64,000 nucleotides of DNA from Tachypleus tridentatus (Eukaryota > Arthropoda > Merostomata > Xiphosura > Limulidae), in contig NC_134834.1 in assembly GCF_004210375.1 (NCBI RefSeq), positions 92,756,170 through 92,820,169 of the forward strand. The letters run 5' to 3'. A program made the position numbers and the translations under genes. Positions within the stretch are counted from its first letter, which is position 1; every line of letters begins with the position of its first letter. Of this stretch, positions 19,560 to 63,585 are shown in pieces. Under the pieces are notes generated by a model that searched no databases, was not told where the DNA came from, and saw only the letters and a list, made by a program, of their open reading frames with translations.

Positions 19560-20778
19560 ATGAAATTTCAGGTGAGTATCGGGAAAATGTAGACGAAACA
19601 ACTCGAACTATAACGTTTTCTGATTATTTCATGTTTAATTATAATTCTGCTTTAAAACTCAAGTCTGACATTATATTGATTTGTACGGGTGAAATAACGA
19701 TTAATGAAATTTGAAACACAACTAGACAGTGACCTCGTTTTCTTTGTCTAGTGGGTAGCGTTACATGCAAACGCTAAACTTACAACAAACTTGCGATGTA
19801 ATCTCGTGAAAGACAATTTTTTCGATATATATGAAATGGTTTACACAATTTTATACTAATAACTTCTCATTTTTCTCATAGTTTTTTTTCTTAACTTGCT
19901 TTTTTCACACGATAAACAAATATGATCTATTCAGCTGTAAGATGTCTTATGTAAAATTATCGAATTTTGGTAAAGCCTCAAAAGTTACCATAAGCGTATA
20001 TATATATAATCTTTTAAAATTCAACAATGTGCGTTTTAAATTCAACAATGTATATTTTATAGTCAACAATGCATGTTCTATATTCAACAATATATGTGTT
20101 TATTTTCAGATCGCAGTTCTTCTTTTCACGGCCACCCTGGCCTACGCTGGTACCTACAAAGCAACTCCTCTTACTATTGTTCAAAACGTTCCCGCTGTCC
20201 AGAGCGATAATGCCTACGGTACTGGTCACTCAACCTATGGTCACTTGAACAAAGCTTCTGGCGCTCACGGCTTTGGTGCCTACGGTGACCGAGCTGCCTA
20301 CGGAGCCTATGCCCACGGTAACGCAGGTGTGAAGGCTAACGCTGCCTCTAGAGACCTGAAAGCTGGCGGTGCCGTCGGAGCTGCACACAGCGACTATAAG
20401 AATCGGGGAGTCTACGGTCGTGACCGTGGCTACGGATACCAGAAGGCTTACGGTTACGATAAAGAGATCTCCTTACACGACGTCGGTGCAAATTCTGGAG
20501 CTTATGGAAGCACATTCGGCCTCAAAGACAAATACGGCCATAGCGATTTGAAGGCTCACAATCGCTACGCTCATGGTGGTCACGCCGGACACGACCGCTA
20601 CGGAGCTTCCGGATACGGGCGCTACGGTCATCTGAACAGCGGTTACGGTAACGCCGGATACGCTCACGGAGCCCACACCTACGCACGTCAACCCGAACCC
20701 ACTTACATCGTCGCTCACCATGCCCCTGCACCTGCTTACACCTATGGCAGCCCATACACCAAGATTGTTTACCACTAA
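19560..20778 (+). CDS. Secreted Gly/Tyr/His-rich cuticle-type protein (intact)
   Basis: Spliced CDS of two coding exons, 19560-19571 (ATG AAA TTT CAG) and 20110-20778, giving 226 aa. The donor is CAG|GTGAGT and the acceptor TTTTCAG|ATCGCA, phase 0. I chose this start because the uninterrupted frame running back to 19942 would begin in intron sequence and lack a signal peptide, whereas splicing gives MKFQIAVLLFTATLAYA, a clean 17-residue secretion signal. The mature chain has no cysteine and is dominated by Gly, Ala, Tyr and His, with repeated GAYG / YGHGG-like motifs, a block GVKANAASRDLKAGGA at about residues 82-97, GYGYQKAYGYDK at about 118-129, and a C-terminal AHHAPAPAYTYG segment recalling the AAPA-type motifs of arthropod cuticle proteins. 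Such proteins are thought to be secreted by epidermis and to interact with chitin or each other. It is a paralogue of the gene at 55609. No Rebers-Riddiford chitin-binding motif is seen, so the role is inferred from composition. Confidence 0.9.
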
Positions 20779-45249: not shown

Positions 45250-45960
45250 CGCTCAATATCAGTTTTCCCTGTCACTTCTAGAGTTGTATATTGAAGGTAA
45301 GATCCGGTGTCAATTAATCTGTGTTTTGTAACTGAATTATAAAGCTAGCCATCAAATGAAGTATTCATCAGCCCTCTTACCTCTGACGTTGTATACAAGA
45401 GAGAAGTAATAACATTCAGTATTGTTTCATCTCTGACATTGTATATTTTATTGAAGGAATTAGAGTCGAAGTTAATCAACTTTGTGATTTCTAGTGTTGT
45501 ATGTTGTAAGGATGGAATAACATTTAGATAGCTTGTAATTTCTGGTATTGTATATTGTAGAGAAGAAATAACAATCACAATCAGTTGGCCTTATATTTTC
45601 TGTTATTGTATGCTGTAGGGAAGAAACAGCACTCAGATAGCTTGTAATTTCTGGTATTGTATATTGTAGAGAAGAAATAACAATCAGAATCAGTTGGCCT
45701 TATATTTTCTGGTGTTGTATGCTGTATGGAAGAAATAGCACTCAGATGGCTTGTATTTTCTGGTGTTGTATGCTGTAGGGAAGAAATAGCACTCAGATGG
45801 CTTGTATTTTCTGGTGTTGTATGCTGTAGGGAAGAAACAGCACTCAGATGGCTTGTAATTTCTGGTATTGTATATTCTGGAGAAGAAATAACAATCAGAA
45901 TCAATAGGCCTTGTATATTCTAGTGTTGTGTGCTGTGAGGAAAGAATAGCATCCATAATC
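45250..45960. repeat. 51-bp minisatellite
   Basis: Unit of 51 bp (GAAGAAATAGCACTCAGATG, then GCTTGTATTTTCTGGTGTTG, then TATGCTGTAGG); exact step between 45729 and 45780, about 12 imperfect copies in all. The period equals 17 codons, so both strands stay open (107- and 111-codon minus-strand frames reading SSLQHTTPENTSHLSAI). These frames are not genes. Confidence 0.93.
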
Positions 45961-46404
45961 AATTTCTGCTGTTTCATATACAGTGAAAATATAAAAGTCG
46001 TTATTATGAGTCTTGGCCTCTTCAAATTTGTGCAGGAAAGCTAAGTTAACTTTATCAGCATCTAAGTCGTCTCAATCGTGCAACGTTAAGGTAGTCGTGA
46101 TATAAACCACTCTCTGAACAATCTATGTTGGCAGATTATCTGTAGAGGGCTTCTCTAAACGATAATTATAACTACGTGTACCGTGATAATAATCATATCA
46201 GTTTATGTCCAATGCAATGACAAATGTGCAGATGTGTGATTTAACCAAATAACCATTGAAAAATCTAATGAAAATTTTGAATTTAGACAAATTAGTACCA
46301 AAGTTCTTGTATTATCTGGACTTCTGAGAATATAACAACACACGAAATAAAACATTTGTTAGGATTTATGACGCTTTATATTATCACACAAAGAAAAATG
46401 TTTG

Positions 46405-46625
46405 TAATCTGTTATAGAATAAAATTATGAGAAGTTTCGTAATCTTATTGTTACAAAAGAAACTCTGACAAGTTTCGTAATCTTACTGTTTTAGATCAAA
46501 TTATGATACGTTTCATAATCTTGATGTCTTAGAGCAAGCTATGACAAATTTTCTAATCTCATCATTATAGAACAAACTGTGAGAAATTGCTTGACGTCAC
46601 TGTTATAGAACAAAATTTATAGCCC
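46405..46625. repeat. Degenerate array of about 48 bp
   Basis: About five copies around AGTTTCGTAATCTTA...TGTTATAGA.CAAA; the first two GTTTCGTAATCTTA motifs are 48 bp apart. Confidence 0.75.
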
Positions 46626-46688
46626 TATTTTTAGTAAACAATAAAATTTATTCCATGTTTCGTAGTCTTTGTATCCTCTGTTCCGTAA

Positions 46689-46817
46689 GCCCCCCAGTGA
46701 CTCAGCGGTGTGTCTACGGACTTACAACGCTAAAATCCGGGTTTCGATACCCGTGGTGGGCAGAGCACAGATAGCCCATTGTGTAGCTTTGTACTTAATT
46801 CAAAACAACAACAACAA
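46689..46817 (+). mobile_element. SINE-B copy, full length
   Basis: Nearly consensus copy with an AACAACAACAAC end and a perfect 11-bp TSD CTGTTCCGTAA (46678-46688 and 46818-46828). Confidence 0.96.
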
Positions 46818-46899
46818 CTGTTCCGTAATGTGTCTTGTAAAACAGTTATTGTATGCTAGTTTCGAGAACAAACCTTAGATCATCAAACAGGTTTAATTG

Positions 46900-47325
46900 T
46901 ATCAGCGACTTCCAGTCCAGTATTAGTCCGCATTAAAGAATTTAACGAAGTCGAACCTTATACGAGTTTGCTTGCTGCTATTTTACACCCCATATTTTTA
47001 TCCTCATAGCAAAATTTACTTCCTGATTTCCAATTTATTACTGTTCACAGGATAAACTGAGGTAGTGATGACACTAATACTATTTTCACCAGCTTTCTCA
47101 AGTGAAAGTTGTCTTATACAAAGAATATCTCACCTAATGAAAGATTAGATACCACTAAACAAAAGAGAAAACTAAACTAGAACAGCTCGTGCGTGAAAAC
47201 CAGTATCGAATTGATCATGTTATTTGTTAGAACAGGAAATGGGTGTGATATATGACGAAGGGCTTTAGTGTTCTATGGACTGGTATTATGTTATGGAGCG
47301 TTTGCATTCAAATGCTCAGCTAGAT
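46900..47325. other. Unassigned AT-rich sequence
   Basis: Between SINE-B and the 63-bp array. No gene recognised. Confidence 0.4.
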
Positions 47326-47329
47326 AAAA

Positions 47330-49065
47330 ATCATGCTAGAAACAACAAGAAAGTTGGATATGACTTATGCAGAGATAACGAAGAAGTTATATTTAACTTA
47401 CATCACACAAACAAGGAAGCAGGATGTAACGTATATCAGAGACACTGAGGAAGTTGCATTTAACTTAAATAAAGTCAGGAAGCAAGATGTAACGTATATC
47501 AGAGAGACGTTGAGAAAGTTACATTTATATCAGACAAAGCCAGGAAGCAAGATGTAAGGAATATCAGAGACGTTGGCAAAGTTACATTTATATCAGACAA
47601 AGTCAGGAAGTTAAATGTAACGTATATCAGAGACACTGAGGAAGTTGCATTTAACATATATCAGACAAAGTCAGGAAGCAAAATGTAACGTATATCAGAG
47701 ACACTGAGGAAGTTGCATTTAACTTATATCAGATGAAGTCAGGAAGCAAGATGTAACGTACATCAGAGACGTTGAGAAAGTTACATTTATATCAGACAAA
47801 GTCAGGAAGCAAGATGTAACGTATATCAGAGACGTTGAGAAAATTACATTTATATCAGACAAAGTCAGGAAGCAAGATGTAAGGAATATCAGAGACGTTG
47901 ACAAAGTTACATTTATATCAGACAAAGTCAGAAAGCAAGATGTAACGTATATCAGAGACGTTGAGAAAGTTACATTTATATCAGACTAAGTCAGGAAGCA
48001 AGATGTAAGGAATATCAGAAACGTTGACAAAGTTACATTTATGTCAGACAAAGTCAGGAAGCAAGATGTAACATATATCAGAGACGTTGAGAAAGTTACA
48101 TTTATATCAGACAAAGCCAGGAAGCAAGATGTAAGGAATATCAGAGACATTGGCAAAGTTACATTTATATCAGACAAAGTCAGGAAGTTAAATGTAACGT
48201 ATATCAGAGACACTGAGGAAGTTGCATTTAACATATATCAGACAAAGTCAGGAAGCAAAATGTAACGTATATCAGAGACACTGAGGAAGTTGCATTTAAC
48301 TTATATCAGATGAAGTCAGGAAGCAAGATGTAACGTACATCAGAGACGTTGAGAAAGTTACATTTATATCAGACAAAGTCAGGAAGCAAGATGTAACGTA
48401 TATCAGAGACGTTGAGAAAATTACATTTATATCAGACAAAGTCAGGAAGCAAGATGCAAGGAATATAGGAATATCAGAAACGTTGACAAAGTTACATTTA
48501 TATCAGACAAAGTCAGGAAGCAAAATGTAACGTATATCAAAGACGTTGAGAAAGTTATATTTATATCAGACAAAGTCAGGAAGCAAGATGTAAGGAATAT
48601 CAGAGACGTTGAGAAAGTTACATTTATATCAGACAAAGTCAGGAAGCAAGATGCAAGGAATATAGGAATATCAGAAACGTTGACAAAGTTACATTTATAT
48701 CAGACAAAGTCAGGAAGCAAGATGTAACGTATATCAAAGACGTTGAGAAAGTTATATTTATATCAGACAAAGTCAGGAAGCAAGATGTAACGTATATCAG
48801 AGACACTGAGGAAGTTGCATTTATCTTATATCAGACAAAGTCAGGAAGCAAAATGTAACGTATATCAGAGACATTGAGAAAGTTGCATTTAACTTATATC
48901 TGACAAAGTCAGGAAGCAAGATGTAACGTATATCAGAGACGTTGAGAAAGTTACATTTATATCAGACAAAGTCAGAAAGCAAGATGTAAGGTATATCATA
49001 AACATTGAGAAAGTTACATTTAAATTATATCAGACAAAATCAGAAAGATAGTTATGGTTTATACA
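47330..49065. repeat. 63-bp minisatellite with ~577-bp higher-order repeat
   Basis: About 27 copies of a 63-bp unit (some 57-66 bp): GTCAGGAAGCAAGATGTAAC, GTATATCAGAGACGTTGAGA, then AAGTTACATTTATATCAGAC plus AAA. A run of distinctive variants (GCCAGG; GTTAAATG; GCAAAATG; CAGATGAAG) in 47537-47870 recurs in the same order about 577 bp later (for example AGATGAAGTC at 47731 and 48308). The 21-codon period gives spurious open frames on both strands. Confidence 0.96.
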
Positions 49066-55608: not shown

Positions 55609-56387
55609 ATGAAGACTGTAAGTATGAGGTCCAATTCGTAAGAAAACAGTGTTCTATGCAGTACGTTAGGGTTGGCTCATTCGTGTCTTGTTTCATATTC
55701 ATTTATTCGAATGCATTATACCAATTATGTAAATACAATATCTCTTGTTCACATACAGTTATATTTGGTGGCCATCCTCTTCGTTGGTGTTGTCTTCGCT
55801 GAGGAGAAGGAGGAACTGAAGGAGTCTGAGAGCTACGCTTACCCTGTTGGCTACCATGGTTACGGCTACGCACCTTACTACGGTTATGGTGCCTACGGCC
55901 ACGGATATGGCGGTTACGGACATCTAGGAGCTGCTTATGGTGCTCACGGTTATGGCGGACTTGCTGCCAGCGCCCGTCACGGAGCTTATGGCTATGGTGC
56001 CCATGGTCTGAAAGCTAATGCTGCACACCGTAACCTGAACGCCTATGGTGCCCATGGCGGCTATGCTGGCCGCTACCACGATATCGGTGCCTATGCCCGC
56101 AACAAGGGATCCGGATACACTAAAGCTTACGCCTATGATAAAAGGCTGGTTACCATAACCGTGGTGGAGCTGTTGGTGGCTATGGTGCTCTATATGGTCT
56201 CCATGACAACTACGGTCGTGCTAACCTTAATGCCTATGGCAAATACGGACACGGTGCCTACGGTGCTTCTAACTTAGCTGCTGCCCACGGCTACGGTGCT
56301 TATGGACGTCTGGGAGCTGGCCACGGATACTATGGCCATGGTTACGGCCATGCTTATGCCCCTGGCGTTTACCATGTCTACCACTAA
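55609..56387 (+). CDS. Secreted Gly/Tyr-rich cuticle-type protein with a one-base frameshift
   Basis: Exon 1 is 55609-55617 (ATG AAG ACT | GTAAGT). Exon 2 starts at 55759 after ACATACAG. Splicing gives MKTLYLVAILFVGVVFA, a 17-residue signal peptide, followed by an acidic EEKEELKESE segment and then repeats of GYG, GAYG, YGHGYGGYG and AHGLKANAAHRNLNAYGAHG. In the sequence as given, the frame is lost after GYTKAYAYDK at the run of four As (56140-56143) and stops at 56275-56277 with no Gly/Tyr pattern. The family pattern resumes in another frame at GCT (56145) and runs to TAA at 56385-56387, ending in YAPGVYHVYH. One missing A (five expected) would join both parts into about 212 aa. The 19.5 kb paralogue and the 63 kb relic both have the spacing this predicts. 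Either a homopolymer sequencing error or a recent inactivating deletion is possible; the long intact second half favours error or a very recent event. Role: structural cuticle component, inferred from composition and paralogy. Confidence 0.85.
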
Positions 56388-57055: not shown

Positions 57056-57082
57056 AGTTTGTTTACTTTGCTTGAAGCATAC

Positions 57083-57342
57083 TGTGTTAATTAAATATTT
57101 ACAGATGTAACATAAATATATGTTACTGTATTAATTAAATATATACAGATGTAACATAAATATATGTTACTGTATTAATTAAATATATACAGATGTAACA
57201 TAAATATATGTTACTGTATTAATGAAATATATACAGATGTAACATAAATATATGTTACTGTATTAATTAAATATATACAGATGTAACATAAATATATGTT
57301 ACTGTATTAATTAAATATATACAGATGTAACATAAATATATG
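57083..57342. repeat. 44-bp minisatellite just past the 55.6 kb gene
   Basis: Six tandem copies of TACTGTATTAATTAAATATA, TACAGATGTAACATAAATAT, ATGT, nearly identical, starting about 30 bp beyond the expected poly(A) site. Confidence 0.96.
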
Positions 57343-62254: not shown

Positions 62255-62750
62255 GAAGCTTCACCACGCCGATGTCATCTCATTCGTCACGTCCGACCAT
62301 GGTTTATTACCTGACATACGACTATCGTGACAAGAGCCCTGCAGTGTAGTGTTAACTGCAAAATACTTCGCTGTAACATTGTCTTGTTTGTTTGTTTTGG
62401 AATTTCGCACAAAGCTACTCGAGGGCTATCTGTGCTAGCCGTCCCTAATTTTGCAGTGTAAGACTAGAGGGAAGGCAGCTAGTCATCACCACCCACCGCC
62501 AACTCTTGGGCTACTCTTTTACCAACGAATAGTGGGATTGACCATCACATTATACGCTCCCACGGCTGGGAGGGCGAGCATGTTTAGCGCGACGCGGGCA
62601 CGAACCCGCGACCCTCGGATTACGAGTCGCACGCCTTACGCGCTTGGCCATGCCGGGCCAGTAACATTGTCATTGTCAAAGGAAACCTTTCTTCCTTGAG
62701 TGTTTTCTATAGTCTATCTAATACACGAGGAAAACAGTTTTCCGTTACTT
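62255..62750. repeat. Unclassified dispersed repeat 2, copy 2, split by a SINE-A
   Basis: 62255-62383 and 62672-62750 together match 32805-33015. The interruption is the SINE-A inserted at GTAACATTGTC. Confidence 0.65.
62384..62660 (-). mobile_element. SINE-A copy, full length
   Basis: Minus-strand copy with a perfect 11-bp TSD GTAACATTGTC (62373-62383 and 62661-62671). It shares the ACGCGGGC change before the B box with the copy at 26465, suggesting a common source. The 82-codon frame over it is SINE translation. Confidence 0.96.
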
Positions 62751-62854
62751 CGTTATAGTTAAAAACAACAACAAACAAACGTAATTTTAGACTCTCCCAC
62801 CCCACCATTTAGCTGTGTTCTTTACTGTTAAAATGATGAGAAACATGTTTACTA

Positions 62855-63225
62855 TGTATTTCTACTGCCAACGTTCGTTGCTGATCTGCCCATAACCTCA
62901 GAGGTAAAACTGTTCGTCATAGTCCTGAATGTTTATGTATTCATGCTGGTTATAAAGATATATTTTGGATTATTTCTGTAACATAGGAGCTAAATAAATA
63001 CGATATTGTGTGCTTGATAATCAGGCAGATTATAGAAACTGTTGTGGAGCTGCTATTGGGTGAAGTATCCATACCGACTACGACCATAGTAACTTTTAAT
63101 ACCTAAAGCAAACACGAACAGGGGAATCTACTGTGTTGCTTAGCCGCTGCTCACGGCATCTTGGAACCACGCAGGACAGTCACGGTGACGTATACAGCTG
63201 TGCTCTCTATGTATGGCGGATACTT
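62855..63225 (+). pseudogene. Decayed third member of the Gly/Tyr-rich cuticle-type family
   Basis: Not visible as an open frame, but aligns in order with exon 2 of the 55.6 kb gene. CTGCCAACGTTCG matches its CTGCCAGCGCCCG. CCTGAATGTTTATG...CATGCTGGTTAT matches the LNAYGAHGGY codons. At 63016-63039 it reads DNQADYRN against DKKAGYHN, then CCGAAIG against RGGAVGG. SIHTDYDHSNF (63064-63096) matches GLHDNYGRANL. LAAAHG (63140-63157) is identical. In-frame stops fall at 63061-63063 (TGA) and 63097-63099 (TAA), and frameshifts are needed. No exon 1, signal peptide or TATA box is seen upstream, where the DNA is repeat 2 and a SINE, so the 5' end is lost. Same strand as the two genes. Confidence 0.78.
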
Positions 63226-63239
63226 TTCAATATATGTAT

Positions 63240-63585
63240 GTTTTGCATTAAATACTACCTTAAAATTCAAATATATTAATAACTTTCACTTTTATCATTA
63301 ACAATGATAAATAATTACCATGTTTCTGTTTTTCACTCTTGATGCTACCATGACATAAAGCGGTTTTCAAACTAGGCCTGACATTTACGAATTTATTGGT
63401 GTCTGCCACTCAAAGTTCTTAGACAGTTACTGACATATTTCATTCTTAAAATTGAAGAAACTTAATAATTACTATTCTTTAACTATGTACTATAACTAAA
63501 TATAGTTGTGTTCTTCTCCTTGTTTGTACAGATGTGGGAAAAAATATGCTATTAATATTTCTAGCTATAAAAAAGTGTTAATATT
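63240..63585. other. Unassigned AT-rich sequence
   Basis: No gene or element recognised. Confidence 0.4.

Follow-up and report, generated by a model that had tools for sequence, protein, structure and literature searches.

A putative exon 2 pseudogene relic within a tandem cluster of Gly/Tyr/His-rich, secreted-looking genes of the horseshoe crab Tachypleus tridentatus

We analyzed a stretch of 64,000 nucleotides of the Tachypleus tridentatus genome (C10:92756170-92820169; genome of 2.17 Gb in 205 contigs), referred to below as the window, and found two members of a gene family, gene A and gene B, together with a frame-broken stretch that resembles their second exon, which we call the relic (Table 1). 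Coagulin (PF02035), a family not known outside horseshoe crabs, gave 19 matches in this genome and none in 14 control genomes. Just upstream of the relic lies a repeat that we take to be a SINE.

Table 1. Positions of the family members, the relic and the neighboring repeat within the window.
Feature	Position	Strand	Details
Gene A, closest relative of the relic by DNA among those compared	55609..56387	+	exon 1 55609-55617, exon 2 55759-56387
Gene B, more distant member, exon 2 open	19560..20778	+	exon 1 19560-19571, exon 2 20110-20778
Relic (putative pseudogene), derived from exon 2 of a gene for a Gly/Tyr/His-rich, secreted-looking protein	62855..63164	+	strongest stretch 63015-63157
SINE-like repeat of tRNA origin, immediately upstream of the relic	62384..62660	-	flanked by 11-base direct repeats, 62373-62383 and 62661-62671

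The proteins of the parent family are short, begin with a hydrophobic, signal-like stretch and are rich in Gly, Tyr and His. Pfam returned 0 families for both halves of gene A exon 2, for gene B exon 2 and for L002, a member beyond the window end, a PDB sequence search with family proteins gave no match, and scanning the window for tRNAs and against Rfam (gathering scores) found nothing. The original prediction had spoken of a cuticle-type gene, which fits the Gly/Tyr-rich composition but found no curated Pfam counterpart; "cuticle" stays a label by composition, and the family possibly encodes cuticle or shell-forming proteins. Two described horseshoe crab cuticle proteins are leads only, likened by description: a carapace protein of Limulus (Ditzel et al. 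2003, as cited in PMC6535216), for which a high tyrosine content is stated, and caraxin from Tachypleus (PMC2956697). When an open paper library was searched for cuticle genes and pseudogenes of horseshoe crabs, no title returned dealt with such a gene cluster.

In this assembly, gene A has a single one-base frameshift near 56136-56145, a site that other family copies cross in an open frame. As the differences between gene A and L003, a related copy in the same genome, are still constrained, gene A would be either freshly broken or misassembled at this site. The frameshift also means that the peptide DKKAGYHN, which the original prediction had quoted from gene A, is split over frames there and is not encoded in one.

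Upon aligning gene A exon 2 to the whole window at the DNA level (+1/-1 scoring), we obtained matches at gene A itself, at gene B (~20.2-20.7 kb) and at the relic, where 63015-63157 matched 56136-56291 of gene A with 64.2% identity over 159 columns (E 4.1e-8); the match was absent with the stricter +2/-3 blastn scoring. Smith-Waterman alignment of the relic with gene A scored 33, compared to a mean of 11.1 and a maximum of 22 among 2000 dinucleotide shuffles of 62800-63260, none of which reached 33. Among 554 real window tiles on both strands, the relic tiles (scores 33 and 31) ranked 8 and 9, outranked only by tiles of the gene A and gene B loci, while the top tile outside these three loci scored 17. 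The score against gene B was 11, a value reached by 943 of the 2000 shuffles and thus not above chance. When seven family members (the relic, L007 and gene B excluded) were combined into a DNA profile, this likewise detected the relic across the window and 18 fetched stretches (E 8.1e-6). Over the aligned columns, identity amounted to 170/282 with gene A, 162/283 with L002, 156/283 with L003 and 149/283 with L004, all from the same genome and all sharing with the relic the order of exon 2, whereas the relic differs from these four in its lost frame, its unrecognizable exon 1 and its flat substitutions. Homology of exon 2 beyond chance places the relic in the Gly/Tyr-rich tandem family of gene A, and the existence of such a relic, as predicted, is confirmed by both the E value and the shuffles.

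The homology extends upstream of its strongest stretch. Aligning 62855-63014 with its end fixed at 63014 and its 5' end free, we obtained scores that 0 of 1000 shuffles reached for gene A, L007, L005 and L004, 1 of 1000 for L002 and 2 of 1000 for L003, with anchors that were exact for gene A only and one base off the multiple alignment in five of the six members. When the anchored alignment was begun at 62780, the corresponding counts per 1000 shuffles were 3 (A), 0 (L007), 1 (L005), 8 (L004), 7 (L002) and 37 (L003), and without an anchor 62855-63014 was weak, being reached by 2 (A) up to 154 (L003) of 500 shuffles across the six members. On the downstream side, homology of 63158-63260 was unsupported, as 845 (A), 201 (L002) and 141 (L003, with an estimated anchor) of 1000 shuffles reached its score. 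The alignments support a putative colinear relic reaching upstream to about 62855, ~300 bases in total, which corresponds to the middle of gene A exon 2 (about 55991-56314). Of the interval 62855..63225 originally proposed, 62855-63157 is hence colinear while the last ~60 bases have no detectable homology, and the alignment runs in order, as had been claimed, but along the middle of exon 2 rather than strictly the second half of the gene. Exon 1, the promoter and the first part of exon 2 went unrecognized around the relic: its upstream sequence, with the flanks of the SINE joined, scored against gene A with flanks at a level reached by 27 of 200 shuffles, and the downstream sequence at a level reached by 7 of 200, the latter through AT-rich sequence before gene A and out of order. 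The two-exon start and the open frame of the family are lacking in the relic; given its stops and frame changes and no convincing upstream match, it is a relic and not a working family member.

The reading frame of the relic has decayed. Residues of the family can be followed along it in shifting frames with stops interspersed: DNQADYRN and SIHTDYDHSNF are separated by a stop within a single frame, and LAAAHG is read in another. The three peptides quoted from the relic were accordingly readable, and the predicted stops and indels were borne out by frame changes, several stops and gaps. Quantifying mismatches at codon positions 1, 2 and 3, we found a flat distribution between the relic and gene A (32/92, 40/96 and 40/94), compared to a strong third-position skew between related copies, namely gene A and L003 (24/207, 23/208 and 89/208) and L002 and L004 (28/211, 19/210 and 93/210), which indicates that the relic decayed without protein-level constraint. 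The slight third-position excess of the relic against L002 (34/93, 38/96 and 49/94) and L003 (35/93, 41/96 and 51/94) is expected, because it reflects change on the other branch. The relic thus holds no visible trace of protein-level selection since the death of the copy. Two marks of a pseudogene, a disrupted frame and a lost codon-position bias, are present, and the putative pseudogene is most likely functionless.

At the protein level, frameshift-aware protein-to-DNA alignment of the relic scored 62 with L002, where none of 500 shuffles came above 44, 41 with L003 (1/500 shuffles reaching), 36 with the second half of gene A (6/500) and 32 with its first half (43/500). Ranked by the same test with L003 or the gene A second half as queries, the relic was not outstanding among the 554 real tiles. 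The frameshift-aware comparison proposed in the original prediction therefore favored homology with L002 and gave a modest result with the gene A second half, weaker than the DNA test; at the protein level the case is clear for L002 and modest for gene A, and at the DNA level it is strong.

The relic sits between two family members that share its strand and cluster, gene A ~6.5 kb away and L002 ~10.3 kb away, the latter with an open exon 2 at C10:92829654-92830253, 9.5 kb beyond the window end. A genome search with the L002 protein gave at least 38 matching places, with pieces of one gene counted apart, and the genome-wide search with gene A exon 2 gave 15 places among the matches listed; the relic was missing from both. 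The description as a third gene on one strand therefore holds in that the relic is a frame-broken member of a same-strand tandem family, supported by homology and by the shared strand of gene A and L002, but that family is larger than three.

The C10 cluster has an inverted partner on C1: of 26 listed low-copy matches, 10 fall in one order, and the 16 others, out of order, are probably repeats. Among those in order, 93.1410-93.1392 Mb corresponds to the gene B region, L003 (93.1052-93.1030 Mb) to gene A and L004 (93.0785-93.0761 Mb) to L002; the gene B counterpart contains one stop in its listed match. Between L003 and L004 lie two members that are decayed like the relic and sit between the counterparts of its neighbors: L007 (about C1:93089148-93089711), with two stops within its match, and an old family fragment at C1:93086388-93086303; an inverted family fragment lies between L003 and L004 as well, near 93097857-93098057. 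Mismatches of L007 against L003 were flat over codon positions (31/194, 23/192 and 29/192), and L007 is less decayed than the relic, with a distance of 0.155 to L003 at positions 1 and 2. Two reports place horseshoe crab whole-genome duplications about 135 million years ago (PMC7815833) and between 135 and 500 million years ago (PMC7210998), and we infer that the C10 and C1 clusters descend from such a duplication.

We consider the relic to be an old, non-functional duplicate, that is, a pseudogene, of a Gly/Tyr/His-rich, secreted-looking gene in the tandem cluster, with a probability of roughly 0.92. A gene lying between gene A and the next open member would have lost selection, would then have gained frameshifts, stops and deletions, and would from there on have decayed at a rate that ignored codons; that its parent was a working gene, and when it died, we infer. 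An ordinary pseudogene in a tandem family is suggested by the homology, the decay, the cluster context and the lack of a close second copy, which also bears on the idea that the relic lies within a dispersed repeat or a transposable element that happens to carry gene-like sequence. SINE heads are abundant nearby (16 occurrences of the head motif in the window with at most 2 mismatches), and one SINE ends ~195 bases upstream of the relic. Yet when the whole genome was searched at the DNA level with 62664-63300 (E up to 10), the only match was its own place, and what homology the relic has leads to exon 2 of the gene family of this cluster. As the search missed gene A too, it excludes close copies only, and old diverged copies could have escaped it; overall, we judge a dispersed repeat highly improbable. 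That the relic arose as a processed pseudogene, copied from RNA, and not by tandem duplication is likewise improbable, albeit a little less so: exon 2 sequence alone is recognizable, exon 1 and the intron region being beyond recognition, while the location between two same-strand members is as expected of a tandem duplicate.

A chance resemblance to a stretch of similar composition could draw on the protein scores against both gene A halves lying within reach of the shuffles, on the ordinary rank among real tiles with two of the queries and on the failure of the stricter blastn scoring, but it would have to account for a DNA score far above the shuffle maximum, for colinearity over ~300 bases and for the L002 protein result, and is extremely improbable. 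Hardly conceivable is a living gene that merely appears broken through assembly errors: the lone frameshift of gene A may be such an error, but errors cannot yield ~40% mismatches spread evenly over codon positions along with several stops and gaps. The tandem pseudogene, as we read it, is one more dead copy in a horseshoe crab family of tandem genes in which the birth and death of genes and, probably, exchange of sequence can be seen, and its detection illustrates that reading raw sequence can reveal a dead gene without an open frame; the understanding of pseudogenes or of cuticle genes is unchanged by it.

The distance between the relic and gene A at codon positions 1 and 2 was 0.54 (0.41-0.69), near the values of 0.63 and 0.67 that the partner pairs show at the third position, which suggests that the death of the gene and the separation of the clusters are of the same order of age. 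On this rough basis of 282 aligned columns, subject to possible saturation and to exchange between copies, the death of the relic may be about as old as the C10/C1 cluster parting. Its placement in the tree had weak support (34), and topology tests gave p-AU values of 0.46 for a sister of gene A, 0.78 for a sister of L002, 0.23 for a sister of both, 0.46 for a position basal to the class and a borderline 0.051 for a sister of L003 and L007. Rejected were the relic as sister of L007 (p-AU 0.0024) and its grouping with L008 or gene B (0.0026 and 0.0027). The relic hence groups with the class of gene A to L006, either inside it or at its base, and apart from L008 and gene B. That the gene died at or before the C10-C1 split, leaving the relic and C1:93086388-93086303 as two copies of one dead gene, we regard as doubtful: 61 of 108 columns agree between the two in the multiple alignment, and direct alignment of the two regions scored only 14, at 62798-62838, outside the relic. 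If true, a dead gene would still be recognizable in two copies after a very long time.

Further observations concern exchange and repeats in the cluster. Four 80-column blocks in mid exon 2 are 90-94% alike between gene A and L002 and 75-86% alike between gene A and L003, whereas in the flanks gene A pairs with L003 and L002 with L004. The exon ends follow the flanks only mildly, with one end block reversed; this pattern makes gene conversion between tandem copies probable. Downstream of gene A, 57080-57340 contains, by eye, a tandem repeat with a period of ~44 bases in several near-identical copies. At 45345-48858, short tandem repeats (e.g., repeated DKVRKQDVTYIRDVEKVTFIS) give rise to open frames on both strands; these are most likely minisatellites, not genes.
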